In this document: one piece after another, positions 6,330 through 50,453 of the stretch | Layout of the letters: every line of letters begins with the position of its first letter | Position numbering within the stretch: the first letter of the stretch is position 1 | Assembly (NCBI GenBank): GCA_018524725.1 | Contig: JAEUWP010000020.1 | Coordinates: forward strand, 1-50,453 | DNA from: Podaxis mareebaensis | Taxonomy: Eukaryota; Basidiomycota; Agaricomycetes; Agaricales; Agaricaceae | Reading direction: 5' to 3' | DNA length: 50,453 bases | Translations under genes and position numbers: made by a program | Notes under the pieces: generated by a model | What the model saw: the letters and a program-made list of their open reading frames with translations, nothing else | Told to the model about the DNA's origin: nothing | The model's database searches: none

Positions 6330-7260
6330 ACCATTTCCCAGTTTGTAGTCTCTTTTCGGTTTCTGGTATTTACTTCTTGCAATTATATCCTGTCCAGCAT
6401 CTTCTAGCCGCGGCCGTTGTTGAATGTTGGCCATCTACTCTGGATTTGCTCATATTAGGATGTTGTATTGAAGAGGGTGTTGTCGCGGGCAACCGATGTG
6501 GTGCCTTGGATAAATCGAGATGCGAGGAACACATGAATGGAAACGCTCATGACCCGCCTCGCATCTATGGAAACAGCATGGAGATTCCATCAGGCCTGTC
6601 GTCCCTCAGACACATGCCTGAGACGAATGCTGATAGTGAGACTGTTGTGAGCGTCCGTCCTTGTACGAGGCAAAAAAGTGGGATATCTCAGAACTTATCG
6701 GTAAGCGTGTCATCGTCGTTGCCAACAAATTCTCCTCTACTGGAAGTCAAGGTGGGATGAGATGGGATAAATCTTTAGATTTGTTAAGCTTTCCTGTCAC
6801 GCATTGTCAGCCCTCTTCCAGAACGATGTACATATGGCGCCACAAGTAACACTCTTCTAGCATTACTAGGTCTGCTAGCCATAGAACACCCGCACTACTG
6901 CTTAGTACAGGTGTTCTTATGCCCCGGCTAAGTTTCCTGTGTTTATATTTACTCTGCTACGTCAAGGAAGCAAGACACAGGGGGGTAGAGACATGCCGGG
7001 ATACCCCGCTGTCGTATACTGACACGAGCTGGTTGGCAGGGCGTCCTATTGTGATGAATTTGGATGCAAGATATAATCATTACAGTATAGGGACAGGATA
7101 AAGTACAATAGATAAATCAGGCCAGAAAAAGAGAAAAGGGGAGGAATAATAAACGTTAAACGGCGGAACAAATCAAACCTCCCCATCCACACGACATCTA
7201 CAAGCCGGATAAAAGAAGGTACAGGAAAGAAAAGTGCGAGTCGAAAGAAGAAAAACCACA
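6330..7260. other. Intergenic, convergent 3' ends
   Basis: This 930-bp stretch separates the 3' end of the FunK1 gene from the 3' end of the Yta7-like gene. Frames here are short and have no recognisable family. I see no RNA gene or repeat. Confidence 0.5.
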
Positions 7261-27128: not shown

Positions 27129-27430
27129 GAAGTAAACTACCCTTTGTAGTTTAGTAATGCGTAACATCCCCTGCTCGAGATATCCACTTGGCTACGGGCC
27201 AGCGTGCCTGCCGGACTACAAGCGCAGGATTAACCGCGAAATTTCATAGTAGGTTTCATCAGGATAACCAAGGCTTGAGTGGTCGCGAACGCTTTTTCTT
27301 CAGTTTGAGGGACATAGTAGTATGACTCATTGGTGCTTATTGTTACAGCAGCAGACTATTCCGTGCATTTATCTTTCTCCAGCCTTGACGGCCACTGGTG
27401 CGAGTATCCTACTTCTGTGGAGGCAATAGA
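27129..27430. other. Short convergent intergenic region
   Basis: About 300 bp between the stop of the PPR gene and the stop of the Rqc1-like gene on the opposite strand. No feature is seen beyond presumed overlapping 3' untranslated regions. Confidence 0.5.
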
Positions 27431-30250
27431 CTAGTCGACGGCATTCAGGTCTGCGGCGTCCTCATCTTCATCCTCAGACGACGAGCTCTCCTCTGCAGGA
27501 GCGGTCCTTCCCCATAACCTCCCCAGAATATTCCTAATCATCCTCGGCATGGGCTGGAAGCATAGAATTAGTATCAGATGAAGACACTGCAATATAAACA
27601 TGAAAGACTGACAGCAATGTCCTCCTCTTCCTCATCCTCATCCTCGTCTTCGTCCTCGTCTTCTTCGCCCTCTTCTACTTCTTCATTGCCTGCGGGAGCT
27701 CCTCCATCCCCATCTACGGCCTCACCTCCCGCACCTCCTTCCTCTCCTGGGTCTTCATCATGACCAACTCCCGCGAACATATCCTCTCCAGGCATCTGCC
27801 CTGGCATCCCGCCCGCACCAAAAACCCCTGGATCTGCAGCACCACCTTCATCCATAGCAAGCATCCCGTTCACCATCATATCCTCCAACTCTTCCGGCGC
27901 CAGCTGTGCAATGACCTGTGCAAACTGCACAATACCACCCGGGAATCGCTGTTCTAGACCCTGAGCTTCGAAGAACGCCTGGGACGGTATCTCATGACAA
28001 ATTCTGGGACAAAGAGTGGGGTTACGTACCTCAAGTTGCTGCCTAAACCCAGCATCTGGGATCATCTGCGCTAACCTCCTACGATCCATCTCCCTCTCCC
28101 GCCTCGTTCTCGCCCTAAACGCAAACAGGTCCTCTGTGCCCTCGAAGAACTTGTCATCATACAACGTCACTGCATCCTTTGGTGGTAACGGGTCACATGC
28201 CAGTGATTTGCCTTCCAATACAAATCTCGGGATGAAGGAGAACAAGTTCCGGTAGCTCGACTCGAGGACGACGACGTGGCGATACACCGAGTATCGGAGG
28301 TTTTCGGAGTTTTCGTAGAGTGTGAGGAAGGCTTTGCGGCGGGGTGGGAGCGGGAGCGGGGCATTGGGAGAGGGGAGGGAGGCAAAAGTCGATGTGACGG
28401 TCTCAGTAAACCATGATGCGTGTTCTTTCCATGGTTGGAACGAGCGCTGGGCATAGAGATGAGATAGAAGGTGGAGGATGCCTTCGGCGAACGATAATGA
28501 CGTTGCGTTGGTTTGGATTTTGCATTCTGGGTGGCCGCGTACGGATGCGGGGAGGCTGACGTCGAGTTTGTCTGCGAGGAGGGGAACAATAGAAGGGAAG
28601 GCTCTGATGGCTTCGGTCAATGCTGCTGTGCTTCGGTCTTGGCTGCCGTCCTTCGCGAGGGTTCGGAGAGCGAGAGCGTGACTGTACGCCCAACCTGGGA
28701 GAAGACTGGGATTGAGGCGTTTGTCTTTGCCAAATTCATGGGAACTATCGAAGATATCGTAGACGTCGACTAGCCATTGGGCCATGTTAGCTTTGATGGA
28801 GACTTGGTCAAGGTGTAGGAGGGCGCCGTGTGGGTCCGCCCATGGATCGAGGGAGTAGAGAAGACGAGCGAACTCGAAGCCCGTTCGAACACATCCTCTT
28901 CGCTGAAGGTCACTGAGAATGATGTTGGCGTGGTGCATTAAACTTTAAATTAGGCAACACTCACACGACCTGACGATGAATAGCGAGGAAGAAGGGTCGG
29001 TTCTCAACTCGGTCGAAGTCCAACCTGTTGAGCCCACTCGTGAGATTGAAGGCTCCGATGAAGGAACGTTCGTAAGTGAAGAGCGCTCGATCAACAAAGT
29101 CCACGGCTTGAGCGTGCTCTGCCACAGCTTTAGCGCATGGCTATTATGGAGCAGAGAAATCAGGCCTACCCTCTCTGTGTCGATAAACCTCGGAAAGTTG
29201 GAGCAGCGTGTCGGCATGCCATGGCAGCTTTCGGAGGAGATCATAGAAACCTTGTGGGTCTGAGAAGAGATGAATGAGTAATCAAACGATATGTTGAGGG
29301 CAAACTCACCTCCGGACATGACAGTTCGCATGAATGCCCTCGTCATACTCTTGTATTTCCTGCTGTATTCAACCGTCCACCATTTCTCACCTGTAGCCTC
29401 CCATTCCCGTCGCTGAAACTTCTCATGAACTTCGCTGTCCGTAAGCGCCCTGATCGACAGACCCTCACGTTGGCTCGCAGACCACCAGGTCGGTTGAGGT
29501 CGGGTGAGATTAGATCTCAGTGCGCCAACATTACGCCGAGAAGAGGAAGACCCCGTTTTTGTTGCTTGCACAACGCGAGAGCCAAAGAACTTGCGTAGTT
29601 CCGCCTCCGCGTCGAGGTGCTGCAACGAGACGCCAAGTAGATCAGCGAGCGAATGGCCCCTGGCTGTTGTCTGCGAGAGTTTCTGTTGTGCAGGAAGTCT
29701 TTCATGTCATGAGACACAATCGGCAAAATGGAGAGGACGGTACGCACTGGATGGAGAGTTCAGCGAGGACTTTGTCGATATCATCCTCCCTTGCTTTTTT
29801 CTGCTTCTGCTTGGCTTTTTTCAGAGCTTTCCGTTCATTTGCTGTCAGAGGATCCTTCGCCTTCTCAGCCTGCGGTTCATTGTTAACGGCAGCTCGAGGC
29901 GCGGATGGAGGTTCTGGCGTTGAAACGGGCAAATTATTGCCATCCCGAGTTTGGGCTCCTGTCGGCTTCTTTTTCTTCTTCTTCCCTTTCTTGGGTTTTC
30001 GTGCAGATTCTTCGGCATCACTATCATCGCCTTCGCCTTCATTTGCAAGAAACTACGCAGTTAGTTCAACGAGCTGGTCCCAGGTAAGAGTAGGAAGCGA
30101 ACGCACGCCTGCCGCAGCAAACACCCCTGTCTTCTTTACAACAGGCGCTTCGTCGTCAGTCAAATCTGACCCTGAGGGTTTATTTGGTCCTCCTAGAGCT
30201 TCGAGTTCCTCGAGTTCACGTTGCTGGCGTTTGTTGAGGCGAGGAGGCAT
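27431..30250 (-). CDS. RQC1: TCF25/Rqc1 family protein (ribosome quality control)
   Basis: Eight exons, 813 residues: 30250-30107, 30052-29744, 29682-29310, 29259-29170, 29118-28965, 28912-28030, 27978-27613, 27553-27431. The N-terminus MPPRLNKRQQRELEELE and the Lys-rich block at about 71-79 fit the family. The conserved core includes QHLDAEAELRKFFGS, LPWHADTLLQLSEVYRHRE, VDFVDRALFTYERSF, RPFFLAIHR and RRGCVRTGFEFARLLYSLDP. The C-terminal part has a long Glu/Asp run and ends in RMIRNILGRLWG plus a second acidic tail. Yeast Rqc1 and human TCF25 act with the Ltn1/listerin ligase, Rqc2/NEMF and Cdc48 on stalled 60S subunits. The exon 2 donor is chosen for phase (GTACCG); GTGCGT four bases earlier is an alternative that would break the frame. 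The start codon is 180 bp from the divergent NACHT gene. Confidence 0.92.
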
Positions 30251-30430
30251 GTATGATTATGGACCTATGTGATGTGATTCGTGGTTAACTGACAAGTATG
30301 GGTTCTAGCATCTGCCATCTTAATCTTATCACCTGACATGACAGTTGCACCTCCATGCGATCCCACAGCAAGCGTCAGACCTAACCTTTGCCCGTTGCTG
30401 CCACTCCCCTTTCTACTTTTCATAAGAACC
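30251..30430. promoter_or_regulatory. Compact bidirectional promoter (Rqc1-like / NACHT genes)
   Basis: Only 180 bp separate the ATG of the minus-strand Rqc1-like gene from the ATG at 30431 of the plus-strand NACHT gene. Both promoters must lie here. An earlier in-frame ATG at 30338 would lengthen the NACHT protein by 31 residues and shrink the gap further. Confidence 0.6.
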
Positions 30431-33400
30431 ATGTCAAAATTACTTGAATCGACTCTCGAGCGAATCAAACGGTTCAAACTCGGGAGAGACCATTCTGATC
30501 ACATTCGGCCCCTTTCTCTCCATGACGCAATTGCCGATACAGGTATTGGTGGTCAATTGGCGGCCACGCAGACCATAGATAATGGTATGTCCCCCCAGCC
30601 CTACTACCCAAATACCATCAGTAAAGCTCCTGCCTTGATAGATACAAGCATACCTATGCCTTCGCACAGGCAAAGGACTTCGCATATGTTTCAAGGCGCA
30701 CATCACTTTGTAGTGAACAACCCCATCATGGTGAATCAAACTGTCGTTAACTCCGATGTCGAAGCTGCTGGTAAGTGCCATCCACGGGTACTTGCTCAAA
30801 AATATGATGCCGAAACACAATTAGGAATGAAGCTTTTATTGGAAAGGGGGATAGCGGAAGCGACACTGGACTCCTCCGCCCGATATCCCCCTCCTCTCTG
30901 CCACCCGGGGACACGTGAAGACCTGCGCAATCGGATAACCTCCTGGATCACGGACAACCACCGCAAATCAAACCTTCTCTGGCTCTATGGTCCTGCTGGC
31001 ATCGGGAAATCCGCCGTCGCCCAAACCATTGCCGAATGTTATCAAGAGCGTGGTTGGCTTGGCGCCGCTTTTTTCTTCTCTCGGCCAAACAAGCGCAACG
31101 ACCCCTATCGTGTGGTCCCTTCCCTTGCATACCAGCTCGCGCTCCTCCGTTCCGCCTATAAGCAAATCGTGACCCAGCTAATCACCCACGACCCCTCCAT
31201 CCTCCACAGCGCATTACACGCACAATTCCAAAAGCTCATCGGGGACCTTCTTCCTTCCTTGGACACGGGAGGAAGGTCCGGGCATCCAGTTCTACTCGTT
31301 CTGGACGGTTTGGATGAATGCGACGGGGACGACGCGCAGAAACAATTAATCGAGTTGGTCGCTTCGTTTTCTTCCGTGTGTCACCGTTCTGGGTCGCCTT
31401 TCCTCTGGATTATTACCAGTCGCCCAGAGTGGCAAATTGTCTCGACTTTTGAGAAGGTCGAGTCTGCCGCTCCATGCATAAAGGAGGAGCTTCGCGTCGA
31501 TTCTCGCGACGCTCAAAAGGATGTTTCCATTTTCCTTCGCGCAGGCTTCAAGAATATACGGGATAAATATAGCGACGCCTTTTCTCCTCAGACAATATGG
31601 CCAACGGAAAGTGAATTCTTGGTGATCTGCTGCACGGCATCTGGTCTTTTCGCATTCGCAGATACTGCGCTGAAATTCATTGGGGATGATGAAGTTGGCA
31701 ATCCCGTCGCACAGTTGCGAGCTTGCTTAGATTTTTTGAAAGGGAGCCTAACGCTAGCGGGCGAAAACCCGTTGGACCCCCTCAACACCTTGTACCGTGG
31801 AATTCTGCGCACCATCCATCCGAAAATACTTCCTACCACGATGCAGATCCTCGCCAAGTCTTTTTGGGGGAAACTCCTCTCCCCGCTCGCCACATCGCCA
31901 ATTTTCTGTTTCTTGATCAGGCCACCTTCTATGCAAGTTTGCGCCGGCTTCATTCGGTCCTAGTTATCCCATCTCCTGAAAACGCGGAACAGTTAATACA
32001 CACGTACCATGCATCCTTTGGAGACTTCTTGAAGCGTGCCTATGAAACCGGAGAGTTTGGTATCACACGGGCTGACATCACCGCTGATACAAGGAAACAA
32101 TGTATCCAATGGTTCGCTAAATGGAAGGCCTATCAGACTAGTAGCAGTCACGATGCTCGCAGTGGGTGATACCTTTTCCAGTTAACATGCGAGCCTTGAC
32201 CGTCAACAATAGAAATTCTGACATGGCCTGGAACCTCGCCTTCCCTCGCATTCTCCATATTCCGTCACGCGAAAGCAGAACTGATGCGAATCTGGGCGAA
32301 CGCATCTGAGGAAGACATGCCTCAAATGTACGAAGAGGTTCGGGATTTTGACATTCAGTCCATCCCCCCTAGCGAACTTCACGCATGCGTGGCTCCGCTC
32401 TGCCGATTGAGTAGTTGGGTGCGTTACTCTTTCATCTCAACCTGTCCCAAATAGGCTCATGATAGCTGTAGCAACAACAGGGGAATTCATATGGGGTTGG
32501 CTATAACATCGTTCGTTTTGAACCTTTCTATGTGAAGGACTATCGCCTCTTCCGAGAATACGGCTCTTTGATAAATCATGATGATATGAAAAAGGGAGAC
32601 TTCAATCAGGTGAGTGCATCTTCAAACCTTTCATCAGAGGCTAACTTCTAGTAGCTTACACAAGACTTGGGTGAATGGAATTTTTGGATCCTCCCTGCAA
32701 AGGGCGGCCCGAAGCCGGGCCTTCAGTATTTCCACAAGATCCGAGCGGCATACTGGAACCCGAATCCATGTTATTTCCTGCTGGGATACCGTGCAAACAC
32801 GTGCCTAATAATTGCTTACCGGCTGACAAGCACGAGGCAATATGTCTCGGAGGCGTTCGAGCGGATACGGAATGCATATTCAATCTCTACGTACGGAGGC
32901 TGGTCATGGCCAACACAACAACATCTAAACACCATCGTGGCAACTTCAGCTACGAACACAGGGGTATCCAAAGATGGCTTATCCCCATTGGCCCGTGGAA
33001 TTATGGCATTTATAGGCGACTCAACACGTGGTGATCCAGTTGGTCGACTCAATTGGATCATCGATCTGCTCACTTGTCCCGACAAATATGAACTGGTCCT
33101 GGGCCTCTTGTGGCAACGGATTCTTTCCGATGTACCCTTAAACATGCGACCTGCCGCCTACCGTATCCTTGCGTTCCTCCTGGCGAGTTCGTTCACTAGG
33201 GGTCCCGGGGTCGCACCATGGCCGATGTCCGTTCGAGACATCTGCGAATTTCTTGCAATGGACGAGGACATTGTTCTGAAGGCGCTTCAAACACTGAATA
33301 TTCTGATATTCAAATGTCCTCTCCCACAGTCAATGAAATCGAAACTCGGTGACCACGACTTCATATGGTTCATTCCTCCCGGCAATCAAGAACAACTCAG

Positions 33401-34224
33401 TAATGTTAGGATATGGCATGGATGGTTCAGTGGCCTCCAAGATGCTAATCCACGAGTCTGGCTTGATGTCTCTACGCGTTTTATTCGGTGGTCTAATCAC
33501 TTTCTGGTGGAGATGGCTACGCAGGAAGGTCAGTATTGATATTGCGATCACTGACAGAAGTTTTCCGACTGCTAATACAACATAAAGGCTCGTGTACGGA
33601 TGGAGAAGGCGGCCGTATATGGAGAGAGTTCATGAATGACAGCATAGAGCACAGGTTTAAGTATCATGTTTTTTGTGGACTATGGCCAACGTTGAATTGG
33701 GCGATGGAGCGAAATCCCAAAGAAACGGCGGTCCTTCTCCGCGAGTTTCGCTTCCCCCACCTTCGTATCTGGTATGGAGCGGACATGGCTCCATCGCACC
33801 AGGATCGTCTTATAAGTTTGGTTAACAAGCTCTATTCGGTGCGTTCTTCGTTGGCCTTACCTTCCTACCTTCCGATTGATGAAAATGGCTATAGGTCCAG
33901 ACTGAGCTCGATCTTGACCCCATCGTAAAGGTGGAAAGCCACTGTGACGAGGATGAGCGGCTACTTGAAAAATGGAATAAGTTCAAGGTTCCACATCGAA
34001 AAGCAAGTTTTCCCATTGTAGGTCCAGGATCATTATCTCGGTTGGTCAAACCGCTTACTTTGCCCATTATTTTACAGCTACAGGATAAATCAAATGGACG
34101 GATTGCCTTGATATCTCTGCACCATGGCACGGTCCCAAAAGACCCCTATTCTTCAAAGGAATGGAGCATCTTTCTGATAGGTCATGGCGCAAACACATGT
34201 ATTATAGCACTCAAGCAACTTTGA
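30431..34224 (+). CDS. NACHT-domain (STAND) NTPase, with apparent frameshift
   Basis: Proposed exons: 30431-30770, 30825-32161 (containing a frameshift), 32213-32418, 32481-32609, 32655-33528, 33588-33838, 33895-34017, 34078-34224; about 1135 codons. The N-terminal 110 residues are variable. The NACHT domain follows the CHPGTR motif and has Walker A GPAGIGKS (169-176), Walker B LLVLDGLDE (270-278) and WIITSRPE. Downstream is the winged-helix-like LDQATFYASLRRLHSVLVIPSP and YHASFGDFL, typical of agaricomycete NACHT proteins. The reading frame must shift by +1 (or -2) near a T5G5 run at 31861-31870 to join these parts; no intron fits there. The C-terminal region lacks recognised ankyrin, WD or TPR repeats, but has two similar short blocks (LLGYRANTCLI and LIGHGANTCII). 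The family is linked to nonself recognition in fungi. The gene could be a recent pseudogene or contain a sequence error. Confidence 0.75.
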
Positions 34225-38199: not shown

Positions 38200-38985
38200 G
38201 ATTCGTCGTGGTCCAAGAAACTCTCTCCCTCAAACATTTCTCAACTCTGCACCGTTGCCATGCCACCACCTGTGTTTGCCTGTATTTGCTTTGTCACTTA
38301 AAATAACAAACGACATATTTAACATCAATGTGCTCAGTATAATGTTCCCCGGAAGACGTAGAGGTAGAACAAGCTGTTATCAACGACCTTGTGAAACCAT
38401 GCAGACTCTCTGCGACATCCTCTGACCACTTCGGGAGTCTCAAGACACCGCAAAGCTCGACGAGAGTGTTCCATCCGACTTTACTCGATATCACCAAGGA
38501 GTTGATATCAGACAATGAATATTTTGTGTTGTGGCAGACCAAGATGTCGTTGATATCCATTCTCGGGTTCTTCACACCTAGAAAGCCCATTGGCTGGTGC
38601 TGGCGCTGGGACATGATTTGGAGGCGGTTCCTCAGCTCAGTAAAAAAAAACAAGGAACGAATTAACGAACGAACGCTCGTGAAGGATTTGTGATGTTGGG
38701 ACAGAGAACACGCATCCTGGCGATTCCTTAGTCAAGTTCGGAGGCAGCGAGATGGTCTGCGAGATATGAATTGGCGTTAAATATGAGATGGCTGTGGCGG
38801 ATGCCGTGGGAACTTAGTACAGTTGAAATGTTAATAATGCATATCGTCGGGACCCAGGTCACGCCGATGCATTATGGTGTGTATGCTGGTGCATGACTAT
38901 ATAAGACATGCAGATATCCTGTACTTACATGTCAAAATATCAACAAACTTTATCTTAGAACCAGATACTTTAAATTTTCTTATTC
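38200..38985. other. Intergenic transition into the AT-rich repeat island
   Basis: About 0.8 kb upstream of the SH3 gene. CpG dinucleotides are still common up to about 38870 and disappear after that, marking the change from gene DNA to repeat DNA. Two overlapping opposite frames at 38294-38693 have no recognisable domain. Confidence 0.5.
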
Positions 38986-39001
38986 CTTTAATATTCAATA
39001 C
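38986..39001. repeat. Target-site duplication, left copy
   Basis: CTTTAATATTCAATAC directly precedes the poly(T) end of the zinc-knuckle retroelement and is repeated exactly at 41066-41081, just beyond its other end. A 16-bp direct repeat on both sides of an A-tailed element is the expected trace of target-primed reverse transcription. Confidence 0.9.
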
Positions 39002-41065
39002 TTTTTTTTTTTTTAAGTCAACAGTTTATTGCACTAGTACTAGACTAATACAAATGGGTGCACGATAGCAGTCCCGTCGTGTAAGAGAAAAGAAACAGAG
39101 GAGAAAAGAAAAAGAAAAGCAGAAACAACAAAAATACAGGTGCCCTGAACAACATGAATGAAAACTAACCAATTACATCAAGGCAGTCTGTGGCCAGGAG
39201 AAGGCATGCTGAAGGAGGTGAGCATATGGTGATGCATCAGCCCTTATGACCCCCAGAGGGGGCTTTCTTGGCCTCTGCATTGCACTGGTATTGCCTGAGA
39301 ATCCAATCCTGGTCAAAGTGATGTCACCAGTAGGGACACTGGCAGTTGTTGGAGGAGTGGGTGCCTGAACAATTGAGGCACCAGGGGGAGTGAGGGCAGG
39401 GATTGCCTGCTGGAGTAGGGGGAATGGGGGGGGGGTTGCTTTGGGGTTGTCCTTGCAGCACCCAGCCATAGAGCAGTGGGAGGTCTCAGAATGAGGACCC
39501 CCACAGAGGGGACACCTGGGTGCACAAGCACAACAGGCATTGGAAGGATGACCCCAGTGCCAGCAGCACTGACACTGAGGTGTGCCAGTGTGGGTGTGAG
39601 CCCCCTTGATGAGACAGGACACACCATTGATTATGATGTGCCTGTTGATGAGGGAAGTGGCAAGTGTGCCACATTGAGAGTTGACCAAGTTGATCCACAC
39701 AGTGGTGGTATCAGACTTGGCAGAATTGCAGACAATACACAGATAGTGCACATTGGAGGAGGGGAAGAAGGGAGAGGCTGAGGCCTCAGTCTCGACTTGA
39801 TCAGCTGTAAGGGTAAAGCCATTAGCTGAGAAAAAGGGAACATCCACAATCTTGATGAAAGATCAGGACACAGGGAGGGTAATGGAGGTGCTTTTGAGCA
39901 TGATAGGAAGTGAGGCAGAAAGAGAGTTGAGGTCTGCCTGGGAAGGGACACTGCCTGTAGAGAAGGTGATAATACCAGAGTAGAAGCAGCCAGAGTCAAT
40001 GGTAAGTGCTGACTTGGCCTGGGCAAGTGCTTGATTGAAGCACACAACCAGGGATTGAAGGGAGATATGAGCATTAGCAAGGTCACTAGCACTAGTGCTC
40101 AAGAAGAATTGACACTGGGTGGGACCCCAGGTTGCAAAGTATGGCTTACACTATATGGAGGTATTGGGGCCAGAAGGGCCAGTTTTGACATCATGCAAGG
40201 GAGGTCTAGGCCTGTTGTATGGAGGTGGAGGGGCACATGAGGGAGGTCTGGGCCTATCACATGAAGCAGGAGTCACAGGGGGGGCCAAGAAGATGCCAGG
40301 GCCTGGGTAGAGGGTTGGGAAGCAGGCACTGGTTGAGTGTCTGCCATCACTGAGTCAGCCATTCCATAGAACAGCATGTGTTGGGCATGCAGTTTGCATG
40401 CCTTAATAAGCAGACCAGTAATACTGTTTGCTGGGGAGGGAATACACTAGGCAGGGGGCAGGGTGCGGTTGGTGAATAGATTTTTGGACTCCAAGACTGA
40501 GATGAAGTTGCAGATGGTAGTGAAAAGGTGGGGGTCAGGTGGGAACTGATACTCTACATCATTAAAAGCTCAGGTTATCTGTATAACAGCACCTGAGGGG
40601 GATTTGTCCTCATCATTGTCTACCTTGTCAGGGGTAGAATCAAAGGGGAGGGTGGAAGGAACAGCTTTGGGAGTTCTCTGCTTAAAGGGAGGGGAGACAG
40701 GGAGATTGAGCTCTATGTCAGAAGAGGACCTACTCTGGAAATGCCCAGTAGCATGCCTGGATGGTGAAGGAGAGGGGGAAGATGCTCCAAATATCTCTCT
40801 AGCTAAGTTTCAAGAGGGGGTTTACTGGCCACTTGAGCTTGACTGAGTGGAAGAGCTTGAGGATGCAGGTTCCTCAAACACAGGTTGCAGTGGGGGTTTG
40901 AACAACAGGTCCAATCAATGCGAAGTAGTCAGGTGTTGCTGCTGAGGGGTCTCAGGAACCTCAGATAAGTTGAGGGGTTCAAATTTATTTCTTTATTTGC
41001 CCATAGTGCTACAAATAACTGACTATAGAGGGAGATGGTGGTGGTTACTGGAAAAGGAAGGTGCA
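39002..41065 (-). mobile_element. Non-LTR-type retroelement with zinc-knuckle ORF only
   Basis: A 2064-bp element on the minus strand, flanked by a perfect 16-bp target-site duplication and ending in a 13-nt A tail (poly-T 39002-39014) with AATAAA 11 nt before it (39030-39025). One long decayed ORF fills it, from ATG near 41004 to the stop at 39173. The C-terminal half has knuckle-like motifs (CQCCWHWGHPSNACCACAPRCPLCGGPH), as in ORF1/Gag-like proteins of basidiomycete non-LTR elements. There is no endonuclease or reverse transcriptase. At least six in-frame stops fit CGA, CAA or CAG changed to TGA, TAA or TAG, and there is a frameshift near a G7 run at about 40278. It probably moved with reverse transcriptase supplied by another element. 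Confidence 0.82.
39173..40102 (-). pseudogene. Zinc-knuckle ORF1/Gag-like coding remnant
   Basis: This is the best-preserved stretch of the element's ORF. It is open from about 40102 to 39173 except for one TGA at about 39866, where the related copy at about 49357 has CAA. Blocks include ALAQAKSALTIDSG, VDVPFFSANGFTLTADQVE and SLINRHIIINGVSCLIKGA, ahead of paired Cys/His clusters around 39480-39590. The protein is presumably an RNA-binding ORF1 product. Many Arg positions in the family read as Cys, His or Gln here, as expected from CpG decay of CGN codons. Confidence 0.7.
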
Positions 41066-41081
41066 CTTTAATATTCAATAC
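41066..41081. repeat. Target-site duplication, right copy
   Basis: An exact repeat of the 16-bp sequence at 38986-39001. It lies next to the 5' end of the minus-strand element, which starts TGCACCTTCC. Confidence 0.9.
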
Positions 41082-41161
41082 ATATTATACATTTCACACA
41101 GATATAAAGAGCTAAGGAAACTAACATATCAACTAATTATCTGGACAAAAGATATGTATTA

Positions 41162-41881
41162 TATTATAGTGAGGCCACTTTAGTCTGTAAAAAGGCCTGA
41201 TACATATCTGCAGATCATATCAAAGGAGACTTCTCATATACTAATAGATGAGCTACCTTTCAGCACTGAGCTTACACAGTAAGGTCAATGCATTCAAGAT
41301 AACTGCAATGCAGTTACACAATATGTTTATTCCTCAATAGAAGACATAGGCAACTCAGAGAGTGATAAAGGTTATAAAAACAACTTAAATCATATCACTT
41401 ATAGTTGATAAAGACTTCTATTTGAGTCTCCACCTAACCAAGTAGAAACAATGCTTTCTACTTGTTAGCTGTCAATGGCTTATATACCTATGAACAGTGT
41501 ATCTAAGTATATCTACTATGAGATATCATAAGAAGTGATCTAACTTAATCAGTCTTCTCCAGGTACTGAGGCTTGACTCAGAGATTGACTTGGAACCAGA
41601 AAGAAGTCTAATTCTACTATGAATAGTTAGATTGACTTCTTTATGAAAAGTTCTTTATCAAAGAAGTCTTCTTTCTAAGAATAAACAAGGAACAATCTAG
41701 AAAGCTTATCAATATACAAATGTCATATGACTTTAGGATTACATAATCAATCCAGCTGTTGCTCAAAAATCATAGTATGAAACAAACAAATTAAAGACTA
41801 AAGCTTTTAAATAAAACAATAATAAATAGATTGAAATCATAATTAGTAAATGTATAGTGAATATTTACTAAGTTTATAACA
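41162..41881 (-). repeat. LTR A, about 720 bp
   Basis: This segment is colinear with 43640-44365 over its whole length, with many transitions and small indels. Shared landmarks are TATAGTGAGG near the start, the block GACTTCTATTTGAGTCTCC, TACTGAGGCTTGACTCAGAG, and the ending TATAACA. Compared with LTR B, its first bases read TATTAT instead of TGTTAT, a likely G-to-A decay. On the minus strand the sequence starts TGTTATAAAC. Confidence 0.75.
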
Positions 41882-43639
41882 TATTGTGTCCATGGGTTAT
41901 ATCAACAGTTCATATTGGAACTATTACCAAATTACATATAGTACAGACAATAAATAAGATATCTTGATAAGAAATGTGTAAAGCAATACATTGTTGTTCC
42001 ACATATCTCCTAACAAGATATTATATCTATCATTTCCACCATATGTAATATAATAATAATATGGGCTATTAATATAATCAGCAGATACAGTAAATATTTT
42101 TAGCACAAATATATTCAGATAATATATTGACTTCCTCAGCCTTTTATATCTGAATGATACATATGACATCTCTCAAATATTAAGAGATATGATATTCAAG
42201 ATATCTGGTTTGGAGATAAGGTTTGTTCATATTTCAACATGTAAATACAGGATATCTACTGGTCTTATATAGTCATATTCCAGCTATTATGAACCCTCCT
42301 AGTAGCCACTGCTGCAATGACATTTACCATGCCTTAGTCCATGAACTTAGACTCTGAAATACCTCTCACTATACCACTCAAAATACCAGTATATTAAGTG
42401 AAGACTCAACCCACTATCACAATGAAGCTTTCACCAACTGTCACCTACCTGGGCATTGAGGAGAGATTTCTTCTGTTAGAGGTGAAAGACAGGCAAGCAT
42501 AGCCAAATCCAACAACTACTAGGCTTCATAACCAATACAATATGCTTGAGGACCCAGGAACAAAAGGAAAACAGATGACAAGGATAGGCAAAAAAAATTA
42601 TAAAAGGGGTTTTGAAGTTTTTAAGGAAAGATGTTTGTAATAGCAGTGCAAATGGCTTAAAACAAAGGGATACAATTTGCTACCTCCCAATACATGAGAC
42701 ATATTTCTTTATATACAATTATGTCTAGATATTTGAATTGAGATCTCAAAGTGGGAGGCATAGAAAAGTAAAACAAAAGGTAGCTAAATTGCAATTGGCC
42801 AAGGAATGTAATAAGACAATAAAGCATCAAGGTTGAAAGGAAAGATAAAGGCAGAATTGAGAAATAGCTTAAGTACACTAGCAAAACACTGGGGAAGGAG
42901 GCAAGAGTAAAATGGAGTAGGAATGGACTGAGACATTGGCAGAAGATCATAAGGCAGAATTGTTAGAATATGAATACATATTAAACAATAAACCAGATTA
43001 TACTCATGTAGCAGGTAGTCAATAGAAGAAATATAGAGAATGAATGCAAACAAGTATGATGACAAAAAGATCCAAAAACTCAAATAAAGTATTCTAAAGG
43101 TGGTGATGGGTAGCTTGACAATAGGTGCTCTGACAGATAGTGTTCCATGTTTGGCTAGCCAGAGAGTAATATGAGGTTTCCATTTTTATGAGCAACTGAT
43201 TGTTGGTCTCTACATCTCCTAGGTACTTTAGATACTGACCTTCTGGTCAGCATATGACTTGGCAAATTGGACAAGTTATGGCAGTAGCAAGAGAATGATA
43301 TGTATAGTAGATATGGTTGTATTGACAATATAGGCAGATAAGGGCAGAATTGTTGGTAGTGAGCCCCTTCAGAATAGTGAATGGAGTGGTTGAGCACCTC
43401 ATCATGCTCGACTGGAGTTATGTCCATAAAAAGGGTTATCACAAAAATGAGGGAAATGGGGGTGTGCCAATAGAGACATTGAGTATTCATCTGTAGTAGG
43501 TAGTGAACAGTCACTTTCTTCATCTGAAATGTCATATATGAGCTCTTCAAGGGCTTCCAGAGATGCATTAGTGAGTTTGGTAACTGGTATAGCTCAGATA
43601 TTGCATGGGTGGTAGGGTACAAGTCAGAAGGCAGTGAAT
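41882..43639 (-). mobile_element. Internal region between the two LTRs, decayed
   Basis: This 1.76-kb AT-rich segment lies between LTR A and LTR B. On the minus strand, about 43577-43407 reads as a coherent acidic peptide (EALEELIYDISDEESD is recognisable). A second frame, about 43404-43091, has two CxxC pairs (CLYC, CPIC) and one internal TGA. I find no reverse transcriptase or integrase, so the pair could bound a small non-autonomous LTR element, or the LTRs could belong to two different insertions. Confidence 0.45.
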
Positions 43640-44365
43640 TGTTATAGTGAGGCTACTTTGGTCTGTAAAGAAGCCCAATATATATCTAAAGATCATATCA
43701 AAGGAAACTTCTCATGTACTAATAGATTAGTCACCTTGAAACACTAGCCTTATACTACAAGGTCAAAGCATCTCTTAGTAACTTTTCAGTAGTTACACAA
43801 TATGTTTATAACTTCAATAAAAGACTTAACAACTTAGAGAGTGATAGAGATTAAAGAAAATTTATAATTTGTATCACTTTGAGTTGATAAAGACTTCTAT
43901 TTGAGTCTCCACCTAACCAAGTAGAAATAATGCTTTCTTGTTAGTGTCAACAGCTTATATACCTACAGACAATGTATCTAAGTATAGCTATCATAAGATG
44001 TCATGAGAAGAACTTCTAATTAATAAGGCTTCTTCAGGTACTGAGGCTTGACTCAGAGATTGACTTGGGACTGGAAAGAAGTCAATCTATATTAAGAATA
44101 GATAAAAGACTTCTTAATGAAAAGGTTCTTTAACTTCAAAGGACTTCTTTCTAAGAATAGAAGAAAAGCTTATCAATCCATTAATATTATACAACTTTGA
44201 AGTTTATATAAAAATAGATCAACTATTTTTATCTAAACTAATGTTCAAGAATCTGAAACTAGTTAGAAGGTAAAAGCTTTTAAAAGATATAAGTACAAAC
44301 AAAGATAAAAGAAACTCAAGTAAAAGAAAATATAATTTGAATTGTTTAGTATACAATTCATAACA
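43640..44365 (-). repeat. LTR B, about 726 bp, probably a 3' LTR
   Basis: Its ends are TGTTAT and ATAACA, a perfect 6-bp terminal inverted repeat with canonical TG...CA. On the minus strand it is preceded by GAAAGGGATTA, a good polypurine tract. That makes it the 3' LTR of a minus-strand element whose internal part lies to the right (44366 onward). It is a direct repeat of LTR A. Confidence 0.78.
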
Positions 44366-44378
44366 TAATCCCTTTCAT
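44366..44378 (-). promoter_or_regulatory. Polypurine tract next to LTR B
   Basis: The minus-strand sequence GAAAGGGATTA ends exactly where LTR B begins. This is the normal site for plus-strand priming in Ty3/gypsy reverse transcription and fixes the element's orientation as minus. Confidence 0.6.
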
Positions 44379-44420
44379 ATAGTTTATAACCCATAAACTG
44401 TCTAACTACTTAGCTTATAA

Positions 44421-45713
44421 TTAATAGTGTCCTTCTCTATCTATGTTGTAGATAGCATCATTGTTGAAGTCAAATTCAAAATTAGTGTCATAATCATCTG
44501 ATAGATAGGTGAGTCTAGCTAAAGATAAGTGAGCATGTTCTGGGTGATTGTGAGACCTGGAAATTGTTCCATGAGGGTCTTCTTGAGCATGACAATAGGC
44601 AGGAGAATGGGAAAATTGTTAGAGTTTTCCAACACATGGGTCAATAGGGGAATTAGAGTGCTTCTGAGAAGCTCTCTGGACTGGATAGTAAGTGGGACCA
44701 AGGGTAAAGGTAACCTTTTGAGGTCCATTGGTGTGTGTAGTGGAGTTGGGTCTAGACTCATGGCTAGACTTGGCAGTGGTGTTGGTGGAAGAGTTAGGAG
44801 AGGTTAGTAAACCAGACTCAGACTTGGAGAGTACAGTGGAGGTGGAACAAGTAGTTCAATCTCCTCCTCTAACAATAGAGGTGATCCAGTCATCTTCAAG
44901 CTGCACCAATTTTTCCAAGGCACTTGTGGGAAGTTTCCTTTGCTCAATGTCTGGATAAGGATTTCTGGAGCAAAACTTGGAAAAGTGTCTAGGAACTGAA
45001 GATTGGCAGTGGATGCAAAAGTACATCTTGCAGAATGTCTAAAGATGGCTCATTCTACTACATAGGTGGCAGGGTCTGTTTCAGGGTTGTATATTTGGAA
45101 TATAGCATGGGGAAGGGTGATTAATTGGTTGATCATTTTGTGAAGTTGCACTAGTTAAAGTATTGTTACTATTTTTAGCCAATTCATCAGACTTGGCAAA
45201 TTCCAGCAAAGGAGTAGTAGATGGTTGATGTGACAGTTCTCAGGGGTGGCTAGGACATAGTTTAAATCTGTCTGGAGATGGTTTACTGATTGATACAGGT
45301 TAGAGATAGAAGTCAGGCTCAATGGTCCTGATCTTCCAGATGATGTTGCTAATATAAGGACCTGCAGGGAGATAGCATGCCAGTTCATGAATACTGGTGT
45401 TCAATTTCTTGAATTGTGTGATGTAATGCTCTCTCAAAGCAGTAAACTCATCAAATGCAGTCCTAAGGATATGCAGTTTGCCAATGAGTTTAGAATTCCT
45501 GCTATAACTGGACAGAAAGTCACTGGCTGTTCTCTCATGTAGAAAGACACATCATAGGGAGGTATCTTTACTACAGGATACTGTAGCTTGACCTTGTTCA
45601 GGTCATGGTGAAGGTTGGTGGCTTGCCAGAACCTTTGTTTCTGTCTCAAGTTTCAGAGAGAGAGGATTCAAGGTAGTAGTGAGGGCATTTTTATTGATAA
45701 GAGTAGAGGACAT
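44421..45713 (-). pseudogene. Gag-like ORF with CCHC-type motif, decayed
   Basis: One frame of 431 codons can be followed from ATG at 45713 to TAA at 44421, crossed by several stops. Those I read are TGA, TAA or TAG at places where CGA, CAA or CAG would be expected. A cluster at about 44950-45050 has CHLC and then C-x2-C-x6-H-x4-C, a zinc-knuckle pattern found in basidiomycete LTR-element Gag proteins. It lies between the chromodomain remnant and the polypurine tract/LTR B, an odd position for Gag. It may be a third ORF of the gypsy element, or the Gag of a separate Gag-only element. Confidence 0.55.
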
Positions 45714-45829
45714 TTGTCTGAGGAATATTAGATGAGTTTCCTTTGTCTTTTATACTATTGAAGAATTTGTTTTGCATTTTGTAAGTTTTCTTCAGGTTCC
45801 CAAGAGTCCTCTGTTAGACTATAGCCTTT

Positions 45830-46887
45830 TCAATAGATTAAGTATTCCATGTAGGTTCTAAAATGTGTTTTGTGAGGTCTGTGTTTTAGAATTGCTTTGA
45901 TTTCATATTCTTCTTCTCCTGAGACTAACATTAGTGGCAGATTTATGTAATGTTTACTATAAATGTTATTTTCAATGACTGAAGTGAGAAGTGAGCATGA
46001 AACTTGTTGTGAATCTTCCATTTTGTTGGAAGCTTTAATTCATATGTTACTGGTGAAGTTTGTTTGACAATTGTGAATGGTCCTTCTCTTCTTTGATTAA
46101 GCTTTTTTGAAGCATATGGAAGAGAAAGGTTTCAATTGTCTAATCAAACTTTATTTCCAACTTTGAATGGATTCCATGGTTTGTTCTGTCTAGCTACTAT
46201 AGTTTGTTGAGTGCATTCATATGCTTCAAGTGCTACTTCTCTCATTTGTCCTAAAGATAAAATCTTCTCATTGATTGAAGGCACTTTAGATTCTTCTTCT
46301 TCATCATTTATAAATGTCTTAGGGTTGTAGCCTAAGATTAATTCATAAGGGGTATTTGTTCTTCCAGTATATAGTTTAGTGTTGTAAATGAATTCAATCA
46401 TGGAAAGTGCTCTTTTCTATGTGTTCAGATTCTTAGAAGTATAGACTGTAAGGTAGAATTCTATTTCTTGGTTATATCATTCCATTGTTCTATCAGTTTG
46501 TGGGTAATAAGCAGTTGACATTGCTAGTTCTATATTTAGTTTCTTATAGAATTCTTGCATGGATTTAGCTGCAAATCTAGGGTCACAATCTGATATAACT
46601 CTTTGAGGTGTTCTATATTTGGAAAAGTCTTTCTTGATAAGGATTTCAGCAATATTGTCAGAAGTGGTAGTCTTCTGATATACTGTTAGTATAATCCCTT
46701 TCATAAGTCCATGGTCCACTATGGACAAAATAGCACCAAAGCCACCACCTGGGGATAGATCTGTGATTAGATCCATTGAGATTTGGTTAAATGGGCATGT
46801 AGAAGTAGGTCCTTTTATGGGTTGTAAGGGTAGTTTAGTTAGATGTCAGTTAATTTTGTATTATTGACATGTAGCACATCCTTTCAC
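45830..46887 (-). pseudogene. Ty3/gypsy integrase-chromodomain fragment
   Basis: Read on the minus strand: the CC half of the integrase zinc finger (VKGCATC, about 46888-46868); the catalytic core (ISMDLITDLSPGGGFGAIL, VISDCDPRF, YYPQTDRTME, 46790-46480); the end of the core (EFIYNTKLYTGRTNTPYELILGYNPKTF and GNKV); the segment SKKLNQRREGPFTIVKQ then KLPTKWKIHNKFHA (about 46110-46000); and a chromodomain-like end (GEEEYEIKAILKHR, about 45930-45880). Stops and a TAA inside the CC motif show it is dead. Protease, reverse transcriptase and RNase H are absent. Chromodomain elements integrate into heterochromatin by reading histone marks. Confidence 0.82.
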
Positions 46888-46945
46888 AGTACTACAAACA
46901 ACTAACTACAGAGGAAGATGGTGGTGGTTGCTGGAAAAGGAAGGT
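46888..46945 (-). repeat. 58-bp copy of the zinc-knuckle element's 5' end
   Basis: This segment matches 41005-41062 at about 52 of 58 positions, and all differences I see are transitions. In the full element this sequence is the start of the 5' leader. Here it joins directly to the integrase fragment. Confidence 0.75.
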
Positions 46946-48480
46946 AGTTAACTCTAGTACAGCAGAGTATGGAAATAGAGGACTTACTAGGGTCAGAAAA
47001 TCAGTCTAGTATATGGGCCAGGAGAGATCTATTTTGTATACTGCAGTATTTCTTTCTTTTGGGAACAGAGCAAAAATAAGGAGAATGCAGAAGTAGATAG
47101 CCAATTATAATTGTATTTCTCAGTAGTATAAATCCATTTACCATCAATATCTTTGATTTGGGAGAATATATAAATACAAGAGTACAACAATAGTAATTCA
47201 AGGGAAAAAGAGCCTGAAGTTTTTGACCTCAATGTTTGAATCCAAAATAATCCACCTGCCTACCCCATATCCCCAGATCTTTCCCACTGATGACTTGGGA
47301 TCAGGATGTGTAGTGGTATAAAGAAACATGCCAGTGGGAAAGTTATGAGTCAAAGTCTGCTGACAATTCTCATAATTGCAATAAACAGGCATGGGCTGTA
47401 GGCCAAACAAACAAAGAATAAGTCAAACACTTTGATAAAAAGTATTAAACACATATGGAGATGGGTGTTATACAATGGGACAACAGGAATATTTAGATGA
47501 TGGGATGGACAGTCAGAGACCCATGATGATACAGAACTACAGCTCTTACAAGCTGGAGGAACTGGAATACCTCCAGGGCTGTAAGCTGGATTGACCTATG
47601 TTAGCTTGCAGAAGCCAGAGTCTCCCTTCTTCATCACCATAAGCCCATCAATTGAGGCTCCAAGATTAAAGCTGGCTAAAAGGAGATTGGAAAAAATGTT
47701 AGGATTTTACTTGAGATAGTTGTTCTCTACAAAATCAATCATGAAGTTGTAGATAATAGGAGGATGGAAATCTTCTCTGAGGAAGGCCATAGTAAGCCAA
47801 AAGGTCCTAAGCAATATATAAATAAGCTTAGATTTCTCATATAAACAGCAATACTTACTTTTTAGCAAAGTTATAGATTTGCTCAAGAGGCTCCTCATGG
47901 ATAAAGGGTCCACTACAGGTTGTGAAAAACAAGCTGGCTCTATCATCCTTCTGGATTACTCTTAATAGAGCTGGAGGAAAAATGACTTTGAAGAGCCATA
48001 TTTATAAGTTGAGTGATCATTTGGACATTTTAAATCACTTACATCCTCTGGAGTGGCACTTAGCTGATCAGGTTGAGGCTTAATCCAAAAGTCTCCAGTG
48101 TCAGGAGTAGAATGGGTAGATATGAAGACTAAGAAACATTTATAGCTATTTAAACTATCAGTACTAATCAATATATACTAGTCAAGGACTTACTTCTGGA
48201 GCTTTGGGATCAAGTCTGTGATGGTCTTCTTCAAGATGGCTATCTTCCTAGGAGTGCTCATATCTAGCTGAACTGAGAACTGACCAATTTAGCTGAAAGG
48301 AGTGTTGGGGAAGTAATATTTGAGATGAAGATAAAGAAGATTAGAGAGACCGATCTCATTATCAAAACTTGCCAGCTGAAAGACCAGAATGCAAAGACTT
48401 TCTGGGCTGAGATCTGGCATACAACTCTGACTAATGAAGGGCCAGTCAAGTTGTATGATTTAGTCATATTTTGAGAAAGG
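46946..48480 (-). other. AT-rich region with decayed unknown ORF(s)
   Basis: Several adjacent minus-strand frames read as protein interrupted by stops: 48467-48264, 48171-47962, 47946-47707 and 47410-47198. Pieces such as CNYENCQQTLTHNF and HPDPKSSVGKIWGYG suggest a cysteine-containing protein, possibly transposon-encoded, but I cannot name it. No ends or long repeats are visible. Confidence 0.35.
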
Positions 48481-48490
48481 CTAATATATC

Positions 48491-49520
48491 ATTTTTTTTT
48501 TTAAATCAGAGTCTATTGCCACAAATATGTCTATCTATGACAAACAGGTGCATGGTAGCAGTCCCAATGGTTTATAGAGAAAAGAGAAAGAAAAGAAGAA
48601 AACAGGTGCCCTGATCAATATGAACCAAAAAGTTCAAAGTAAATCACATATAGACAAAAAGAAAGACAGTCTATACAGAAGAAATGACATTCCCACTATA
48701 CTTGAGAACTAACCTTTGTACCTGCCACCTCAAGAGGCAGCAGTGTGCTTGACTGCAGCAGCATTGGCATTGCATTGGTATCTTCTATGAATCCACTCAT
48801 AGTCAAATCAGTGTCACCAGTAAGGGCACCAGCAGTTGTTGGAAGGATGGGTATCTGAGCAATTGAGGCACTGTGGAGAGTGAGGGCAAGGAGTACCCTT
48901 GGGGATGGGAGGGGTTGAGGGGTTGGCCTTGGGATTGCCTCAATAGCAACCCACCATGGAGTGGTGAAAAGCCTCAAAATGAGGACCCCCACAGAAAGGG
49001 CACTTGGGTGCATGCATGCAGCAAGCATTAGAAGGATAACCCCAATACCAGCAATACTGGCATTGAGGTGTGCCAGTGTGGGTACAGGTACCCTTGATGA
49101 GACAGGACACACCATTTATCATGATGTACCTGTTAAGGAGAGAGGCAGTAAGGGTGCCATGCTGGGAATCAATTGAATTGATCTATACAGTAGCAGAATC
49201 AGACTTGGGGGAGTTGTGGACAATATGTATGTGATGCATGTCAGAAGTGGGGAAGAAGGGGAAGGCCAAAGCCTCAGTCTTGACTTGATCAACTATTAGT
49301 ATGAAGCTGTTAGCTGAGAAGAATGGAACATCCATGATCTTGATGAAAGATTGGGATACAGGGAGAGAGATGGAGGCACTTTTGAGTGCTGATGGAAGAG
49401 AAGTGAAGATCATTTGGAGGTCCACCTAGAAGGGGACACCACCTGTGGAAAAGGCAATGACTCCTAAATGAAGATAGCCAGAGTTGATGACAAGTGCTGA
49501 TGTGCCCAAAACAGAAACAT
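48491..49520 (-). mobile_element. 5'-truncated copy of the zinc-knuckle retroelement
   Basis: The poly-T run at 48492-48502 is the A tail of a minus-strand insertion. The sequence after it matches 39015-40020: same 3' untranslated region (GGTGCATGGTAGCAGTCCC against GGTGCACGATAGCAGTCCC), same zinc-knuckle block (about 49115-48940, with several Cys/His positions altered) and VDVPFF-like segment near 49330. Homology stops near 49515, so about half the element is missing from the 5' side, as is usual for non-LTR insertions. I found no convincing target-site duplication. The coding region is more decayed than in the first copy. Confidence 0.75.
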
Positions 49521-50453
49521 GGGTGAAATGATACAATTTTTGTCAATATAGCTATAAAAATAACATGGCTATAGAGACAGAATATCTCCAGTTACTGAAC
49601 AAGGAAAGGATCATACCTAAAATGGAAGTAGCTACTCTGCTATGACAGAGTAAGCCCAAAGTCAACTAGAGAAGCTGGCAAGACTGGTTATCTAGTACTC
49701 CAGACTTATATCTGTGAACCAGAAGGATGCTTCCTATGCAGGAAAACTGTACTGCATTATTATTCCAAGTTCAGAAGCCATTGACAGCCTATCTATGAGT
49801 AATGACTCTGATCCAAGGCTTAGATCTTGCTCTGTTCACATTATTGATATAGTAGCTATACTGGCTACTTATCAGACTACAGTTAAGACATCTCTACCTT
49901 AAGGAAAAGATAGGAAAGCCCCAGGGCACCAGACAGCAGTGAGGTAGCTACTGCTCAGAGAAATTCCAGAGCATAATAATTCACATGTCTGAATACACCA
50001 GAACAACTAGTTAGCTCTACAAGATAAAGAAAACACATGAAATGGACCTGGAGTATCTCTTTACCAAGGAAAAACCTTGGTCACTTGGTAGCTACTTCAG
50101 TCCAGACCTCTGAGATAAAGAAACCATGTGGTAGATGATGAAGATCACCCTTAAAAATCAATTATCCAAGCCCAGACCAGTTAACCATGCAGTCTTGGAG
50201 CTTACAGACAAGATATCCCTGAGCTTTAAGGCTCAGACTTATTCTAGAAATGATTATCCAGTTTCCATATGGTCCCAAGTATTCTAGAAACTATATAACA
50301 TGTGATTTTGTACTTTCTTAGTTTGTATCTTGTCTACAATATATAAACCTCCCAGGCATGAGCTGGACAGGCAAGAAACCTGCTCCCAGTAGTGCATAAG
50401 GGATTGACCACTCAATTCTAAGTGCTAAGTGAGAGTTTAAGTGTTTCTTCAGT
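49521..50453. other. AT-rich right-edge segment, possible element promoter
   Basis: No protein frame is recognised. A TATATAAA box at about 50340-50347 followed by a pyrimidine/purine-mixed leader up to the edge could be a promoter or LTR U3-R region of an element continuing outside the window. I found no CpG dinucleotide in this stretch. Confidence 0.3.

Follow-up and report, generated by a model that had tools for sequence, protein, structure and literature searches.

A probable half-LINE in the agaric fungus Podaxis mareebaensis: a gag-only element with LINE-like ends

The nearest analogues of the element described here are half-LINEs (HAL1, HeT-A), rather than the gag-only LTR elements and SINEs to which a first-pass annotation of the same DNA had compared it. 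HAL1 (half-L1) of mammals is described as a non-autonomous LINE derivative that encodes only ORF1p, and these L1 derivatives have several independent origins in mammals (PMC5753468). HeT-A of Drosophila carries gag without pol, and the conservation of its gag suggests selection; TART or TAHRE is proposed to supply the pol, and its source is described as not settled (PMC5537684). In trypanosomatids, RIME and NARTc have a short 5′ hallmark, Pr77, in common with ingi and L1Tc, and this hallmark is a promoter (PMC4748587). SINE/LINE tail pairs, which include the fungal pairs Mg-SINE/MgL and SINE2-1_BG/Tad1-24_BG, show a LINE 3′ end on a non-autonomous element, and the shared 3′ end is taken as the recognition site of the LINE reverse transcriptase (RT) (PMC3747384). 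Regarding fungal LINEs, marY2N of Tricholoma matsutake is a poly(A)-tailed LINE, and the sections of the source that deal with it mention no gag-only derivative (PMC10627285). The open-licence literature yielded no precedent for a fungal gag-only LINE; Repbase and most subscription papers lie outside that scope.

Here, we analysed a stretch of 50,453 nucleotides from P. mareebaensis (the window; contig C333 of the searched genome, which comprises 36.95 Mb in 429 contigs). The product of one host gene in the window (25359-27128) matched 19 proteins; outside the window, the best named match is from Macrolepiota fuliginosa (64%), and Agaricus bisporus, Leucoagaricus, Leucocoprinus and Amanita come next among the named ones. 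This places the host with the agarics, close to Macrolepiota, and bears out the basidiomycete origin assumed in the first-pass annotation. The unit at 39002-41065 is very probably a half-LINE, which encodes only an ORF1/Gag-type RNA-binding protein and would use the ORF2 protein of two LINE lines, A and B, in trans via the cycle proposed below. The first-pass annotation had described a 2064-bp, A-tailed and AATAAA-bearing unit exactly flanked by a 16-bp duplication, and this description holds. The sequence CTTTAATATTCAATAC is located at both junctions, 38986-39001 and 41066-41081, and the exact identity over 16 bp excludes a chance match. The features of the window are as follows.

38986-39001, no strand: target-site duplication on the poly(A) side, 16 bp.
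39002-41065, minus strand: complete gag-only non-LTR element (probable half-LINE), a decayed copy of 2064 bp with its 5′ end at 41065.
39002-39014, minus strand: poly(A) tail of 13 A.
39002-39075, minus strand: LINE-shared 3′ segment of 74 nt, of which 13 are the A tail, from alignment to L061, L062 and L066.
39025-39030, minus strand: AATAAA, within the LINE-shared tail and 10 bases before the A run.
39240-41004, minus strand: gag/ORF1 remnant (594-codon homologue), with nine stops and register changes.
39290-39589 (approximate), minus strand: zinc-knuckle region, with three CCHC-type motifs seen by eye in the intact homologue.
39592-40129 (approximate), minus strand: two predicted RRM-like domains, equivalent to residues 293-472 of P0001.
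41006-41063, minus strand: LINE-shared 5′ segment of about 58 nt, which stops just upstream of the gag ATG; proposed internal promoter.
41066-41081, no strand: target-site duplication on the 5′ side, 16 bp.
46885-46945, minus strand: isolated 61-bp copy of the element 5′ end, 89% identical, from sequence comparison.
48491-49536, minus strand: second family copy, 5′-truncated and decayed, from sequence comparison.

The unit had also been taken as a finished insertion and not a deletion product, which agrees with its bounding duplication and with the copies of the same layout found elsewhere in the genome. The second copy at 48491-49536 had been said to share the same 3′ end; it is a real family copy, but a diverged one, with 73% identity to element positions 1054-1789 and 67% across the 3′ end at 48492-48630. 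Its tail is also 76% identical to the tail variant of L017, and inspection by eye showed no duplication at its ends. At 46885-46945, no further part of the half-LINE was matched beyond the 61-bp 5′ piece, which is followed on the minus strand by a Gypsy integrase-like frame (by eye). Two direct repeats at 41164-41826 and 43642-44299, about 2.47 kb apart and 74-85% identical, are possibly the LTRs of a decayed LTR element adjoining the half-LINE. The insertion is bracketed by a 91-nt inverted repeat (81%; 38885-38975 and 42194-42284), and the G+C content, about 0.50 before, drops to 0.35-0.42 where the contig end becomes repeat-rich (window positions 40001-50000).

The reading of a single Gag/ORF1 frame is borne out by one family copy with an intact ORF of 594 codons, but it does not apply to the window copy as it stands, in which the frame is broken by nine stops. 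Compared with the 594-codon homologue, these are five TGA, two TAG and two TAA, and the window gag is recovered as three tblastn blocks in three registers; thus, the window copy is a dead, decayed member of the family. The gag product of the intact copy has two predicted RRM-like folds (residues 293-472 of P0001) and three zinc knuckles recognized by eye. An RRM plus CCHC is the arrangement of the Type I ORF1 protein. The Pfam search of gag gave no family above the cut-off, with a row for PF04926 below it. Fold matches other than the RRM, such as 2nyi at the head of one list and chlorite dismutases at lower ranks, were regarded as unspecific similarity. The gag is homologous to ORF1 of LINE A (tblastn 5e-44), and the C178 locus (L064) has no match to gag.

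A nucleotide search with the 2064-bp unit gave at least 78 matches among the best 40 of 254 candidates, and the 30 best-scoring loci were fetched for comparison. Of the 30 loci, 12 keep both ends, as judged by the 5′ motif and by at least nine A in the poly(A) run; counted from CCTTCC through the final A, these copies measure 2045-2109 bp. Direct duplications of 11-16 bp flank 11 of the 12 copies, perfect in nine and mismatched in two (L012 and L017); no duplication could be recognized for L007, which also keeps both ends. In all eleven duplication-bearing copies, the common CCTT start is separated from the duplication by 2-7 extra bases, and such bases are usual at LINE 5′ junctions. The protein search with gag gave at least 80 matches (best 74 of 290 candidates), 78 at 50% identity or more and two at 37-39%; the 78 are not a copy number, since in some cases several matches come from a single locus. 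The family thus shows the non-LTR (LINE-class) traits of a 3′ poly(A), target-site duplications of variable length and the lack of LTRs. The earlier view that the element represents a family is confirmed, as is its expectation of further copies with the same ends and duplications of 10-20 bp.

RT and endonuclease (EN) had been reported as missing from the unit, and the same is found across the family. A search with the LINE EN gave at least 150 matches (best 150 of 172 candidates), which were crossed with the gag match list. None of the 78 gag family matches, drawn from the best 74 of 290 candidates, has a same-strand EN in the 2.7 kb downstream, and four of the 78 listed have one at 2.8-4.4 kb. 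In two of these four, on C314, a poly(A) and a duplication that belong to the gag copy close it off ahead of the EN. On C375, a 28-nt match to the 5′ end (96%) separates the gag match from the EN, as would be the case if a LINE had inserted there; the third locus is C265. Among the matches listed, an EN lies directly downstream (75 bp) only at a 39% match, which is LINE C, a different LINE. An RT and EN of its own, a trait of the LINE class, is therefore lacking among the matches listed, and the element can be only a non-autonomous member. The possibility that most copies carry an RT ORF between gag and poly(A) had been raised, and for the candidates scored the lengths of the 12 complete copies and the EN count answer it in the negative. 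The 3′ UTR motif GGGCACCT occurs in 12 of 12 complete copies; the four aligned LINEs lack it in their last ~150 nt. Given this motif and the one layout of all complete copies, the simplest reading is a single origin of the ORF2-less layout, which would predate the divergence of the family. A rare full-length sister with the same gag and an RT may be among the unscored candidates.

The partner LINEs are present in the same genome; they are about 6.9 kb long and carry ORF1, EN and RT. A 159-nt query from the 3′ end gave at least 42 matches (best 40 of 195 candidates), and for twelve places among the matches listed the similarity is confined to the final 74 nt (with the A tail) and amounts to 91-93%. 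In two of the twelve, L061 and L062 (tail 93%), LINE ORF2-like frames, partly broken, lie upstream of the tail. The clearest single case is C19, where a 6.9-kb span contains the 5′ end at ~873 with ORF1 and EN (L065), the RT at 5084-5863 and the tail at ~7712-7788 (L066, 89%). On C274 (L063), a LINE B copy lies inside a LINE A copy and the tail is 81% identical over 124 columns; Pfam finds the endonuclease (PF14529, 5.4e-10) and the reverse transcriptase (PF00078, 1.4e-29) in LINE A. The inserted LINE B at C274:1089-7983 (L063, L067 and L073) is complete and lies within the last zinc knuckle of the ORF1 of the other LINE. It is bounded (~1089-7983) by a 12-bp duplication, GACCACCATGTG, derived from the ORF1 of the host LINE. 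The complete LINE on C334 (~26664-33520) has a 15-bp duplication, GAAACTCCATTACCC, and the C19 LINE, one of the three LINE copies examined, has no duplication at its ends. The duplications of 12 and 15 bp are thus in the same size class as those of the half-LINE.

LINE lines A and B are related. Their ORF1 sequences are 76% identical and the EN is 43-50% identical to the LINE A query, a difference that suggests exchange between LINEs at the ORF1/ORF2 border. The 5′ end of the LINEs is sharp, with 36 of 39 non-self matches to L065:560-1000 starting at query base 14 or 15 (best 40 of 121 candidates). LINE frames of 1252, 1324 and 1343 codons with stop-free EN matches, on C153, C120 and C185, make a helper plausible. 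RNase H was not seen by Pfam in L061:817-1746 and was otherwise sought by eye. The partner RT and the 'Pol-like protein Pol-2' of T. matsutake, which we take to belong to marY2N, are 53% identical at 76% query coverage, and the named relatives listed for the RT are agaric proteins. LINE C (C375 and C28), whose ORF1 is slightly nearer to gag (34-40%) than that of LINE A/B, was rejected as a partner; its fetched 3′ end lacks the tail and the fetched stretches contain no match to the 5′ end. A full-length partner sharing the 3′ end and bearing an RT had been anticipated; the LINEs found carry EN and RT, and the 5′ end is common to both elements as well.

To describe the shared ends, we compared gag-only and LINE copies at both termini. 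The last 74 nt of the window unit, A tail included, are 93% identical to L061 and L062 and 89% identical to L066. The query with the gag-only 5′ end gave 27 matches (all 26 candidates scored) and reached four LINE 5′ ends with genome-wide E values of 4e-9 to 5e-8, those of C369 and C381 directly and those of C200 and C241 at 2.4-2.7 kb upstream of a same-strand LINE EN. In the alignment of thirteen gag-only and four LINE 5′ ends, the first ~58 nt agree, with only ~43 nt in two of the LINE rows. Local alignment scores of the gag–LINE 5′ pairs are 15-33, compared with means of 7.4-7.8 and maxima of 15-18 for shuffled sequences (2600 shuffles per LINE). Every shuffle is outscored by 35 of the 39 pairs; the four pairs not above the best shuffle are L005 with LINE A, and L004, L005 and L026 with the C274 LINE. 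At the 3′ end, the tails of 17 gag-only and four LINE copies have in common an invariant ACTGCTA, a CA-CC-TTTGTA-TAG block and CAATA. The gag-only tails form three variants (L003, L009 and L017), which differ in the inserts between the constant TTTG and TA-TAG; one variant is close to the LINE tails, and the other two match less well. These variants are compatible with an exchange of ends, but are not proof of it. Over their last 49 nt, certain tails at LINE B loci are similar to variant 2 (86%). The search for a conserved RNA fold in the tail was negative (0 consensus pairs), and the Rfam search for a 5′ ribozyme in the window copy gave a sole row, NEAT1, far below the cut-off.

For the gag ORF, the median dN/dS is 0.299, with a range of 0.197-0.461 (Nei–Gojobori; 435 non-independent pairs from 30 loci). 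Neutral simulations starting from L003 with 11% change per copy, run 12 times at each of the CpG transition rates of 1, 5, 10 and 20 times, give mean values of 0.72-0.78 and a minimum of 0.62, for sequences less diverged than some of the real pairs. No pair approaches the neutral value. Of the CpGs in L003, only a minority remain in most of the 29 family copies set against it, and the commonest in-frame stop is TGA, as cytosine methylation and deamination would give. CpG decay is an unlikely cause of the low dN/dS, by the simulations and by the pairs that are still CpG-rich (L003 with L007, L016 and L026), which give 0.30-0.38. These ratios indicate that the gag ORF evolved under purifying selection, and gag is thus not a mere passenger. 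Since the complete copies all lack ORF2, selection most likely acted on the non-autonomous element, and it would be best explained if the gag protein mostly serves the RNA that encodes it. Synonymous divergence between family members reaches about 1 (pairs with L003), with one layout throughout.

Six gag-only ORFs, picked for long frames, are 76-86% identical to one another and 34-46% identical to three Macrolepiota proteins, and only 29-35% identical to ORF1 of LINE A/B and 34-40% to that of LINE C. In a midpoint-rooted tree of 13 rows and 344 columns, the gag-only sequences group with Macrolepiota (97/92), apart from the LINEs; the Macrolepiota rows are less than half filled, and the program warned of long LINE branches meeting. 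The gag search of a large protein database gave only three matches, all from Macrolepiota and on short contigs. A gag this distant from LINE ORF1 between ends this alike implies that the coding part and the ends have different histories, and the sequence comparisons identify an old gag lineage with LINE A/B-like ends.

The separate gag branch, which includes Macrolepiota proteins on short contigs, would also suit a satellite that has outlived its autonomous LINE family, with the full-length members either extinct or missing from the assembly; TAHRE may hold this place for HeT-A. The gag search scored the best 74 of 290 candidates, which leaves some room for such members; however, none of the 78 family matches listed is such a member, and the gag-only layout in 12 of 12 complete copies makes it most likely that selection and radiation took place within the gag-only form. 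We therefore regard this relic origin as unlikely, while giving it real weight. A recent internal deletion, with loss of ORF2 from a resident LINE, would account for the match of both ends to LINE A/B and for the homology of gag to LINE ORF1. It is contradicted by the ORF1 distances to all three LINEs and by the separate branch with Macrolepiota, and synonymous divergence of up to about 1 within one common layout also speaks against it, so that this origin is very improbable. Poly(A), duplications and a conserved ORF would equally fit processed-pseudogene retrocopies of a domesticated host gag gene made by the LINE machinery, but the copies have a LINE-like 5′ end up to the ATG and a LINE 3′ tail, and the many diverged copies with identical end layout point to replicating sources and not to one parent gene; a host-gene origin is scarcely credible. 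Lastly, short non-autonomous elements occur both among LTR elements, where the gag-only type is named TR-GAG, and among SINEs, but either identity is negligible for a unit (39002-41065) whose two ends carry no repeat of at least 24 bp, with 11-16 bp duplications plus poly(A) in its family and with a 594-codon ORF.

For the half-LINE reading, which we prefer, the following cycle is proposed. First, a promoter within the ~58 nt shared at the 5′ end would direct transcription of the whole unit by RNA polymerase II, and the transcript would be polyadenylated at the shared AATAAA, which is present in the sequence. Translation would then give a protein of ~594 amino acids, whose ORF bears the mark of selection and which may coat its own RNA in cis. 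The ORF2 protein of LINE A/B, with its EN and RT, would recognize the tail that the two elements share, together with the poly(A), and act in trans. Finally, the RNA would be inserted by target-primed reverse transcription, a route consistent with the observed 11-16 bp duplications. It is possible, if tentative, that the two elements form a long-lived system in which a diverged gag is selected, while the ends are matched to those of the EN- and RT-supplying LINEs and perhaps renewed from them time and again. If this two-element reading is true, ORF1p must serve the RNA that encodes it in cis and ORF2p must work in trans, and the ends that are recognized would be modules open to exchange. The combination of a selected gag and a missing RT makes it testable which LINE proteins are needed in cis and which can be borrowed. 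The 5′ ~58 nt and the 3′ 74 nt (with the A tail) are candidate recognition blocks for the LINE machinery in organisms with little LINE study, and the pair of elements allows one to ask why a genetic parasite retains one RNA-binding, coat-like protein.

With a LINE-homologous ORF1 (5e-44 to LINE A) and no ORF2 (0 of the 78 matches listed), the family has the composition of a half-LINE. As HAL1 is described in the source cited above, the two have in common that they are ORF1-only LINE derivatives. HAL1, however, is mammalian and derived from L1, whereas the fungal half-LINE has an agaric host, predicted RRM-like folds with three zinc knuckles, and an ORF1 only 29-35% identical to that of the LINEs that share its ends. 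Descent from the mammalian L1 clade is not indicated, since the host is an agaric and the named relatives listed for the partner RT are agaric as well. HeT-A and the fungal half-LINE both encode gag only; HeT-A is described as lying head-to-tail at chromosome ends, to which it attaches with no target-site duplications, whereas the fungal family has target-site duplications (11 of 12 complete copies) and has both short ends in common with its partner. The likeness to RIME/NARTc, from the published account of Pr77, is that of an autonomous/non-autonomous pair with a common 5′ segment. To our knowledge, RIME and NARTc encode no ORF1 protein; unlike them, the fungal half-LINE has kept a full ORF1 under apparent selection, and the Rfam search of the window copy gave no ribozyme. 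SINEs are short, Pol III-derived and non-coding, whereas the fungal half-LINE has a 594-codon ORF, apparently under selection, for a 594-aa protein and also has its 5′ end in common with a LINE. As far as the cited accounts describe them, HAL1, HeT-A, the Pr77 elements and the SINE/LINE pairs each show part of the layout of the fungal half-LINE. Mammals have half-LINEs in HAL1, and flies have a special telomeric form in HeT-A; a mushroom family with duplications, a separate gag clade and ends that match those of LINEs would extend the strategy beyond these two animal groups. In summary, the fungal half-LINE is old and self-standing, and it resembles HAL1 and HeT-A while belonging to neither.
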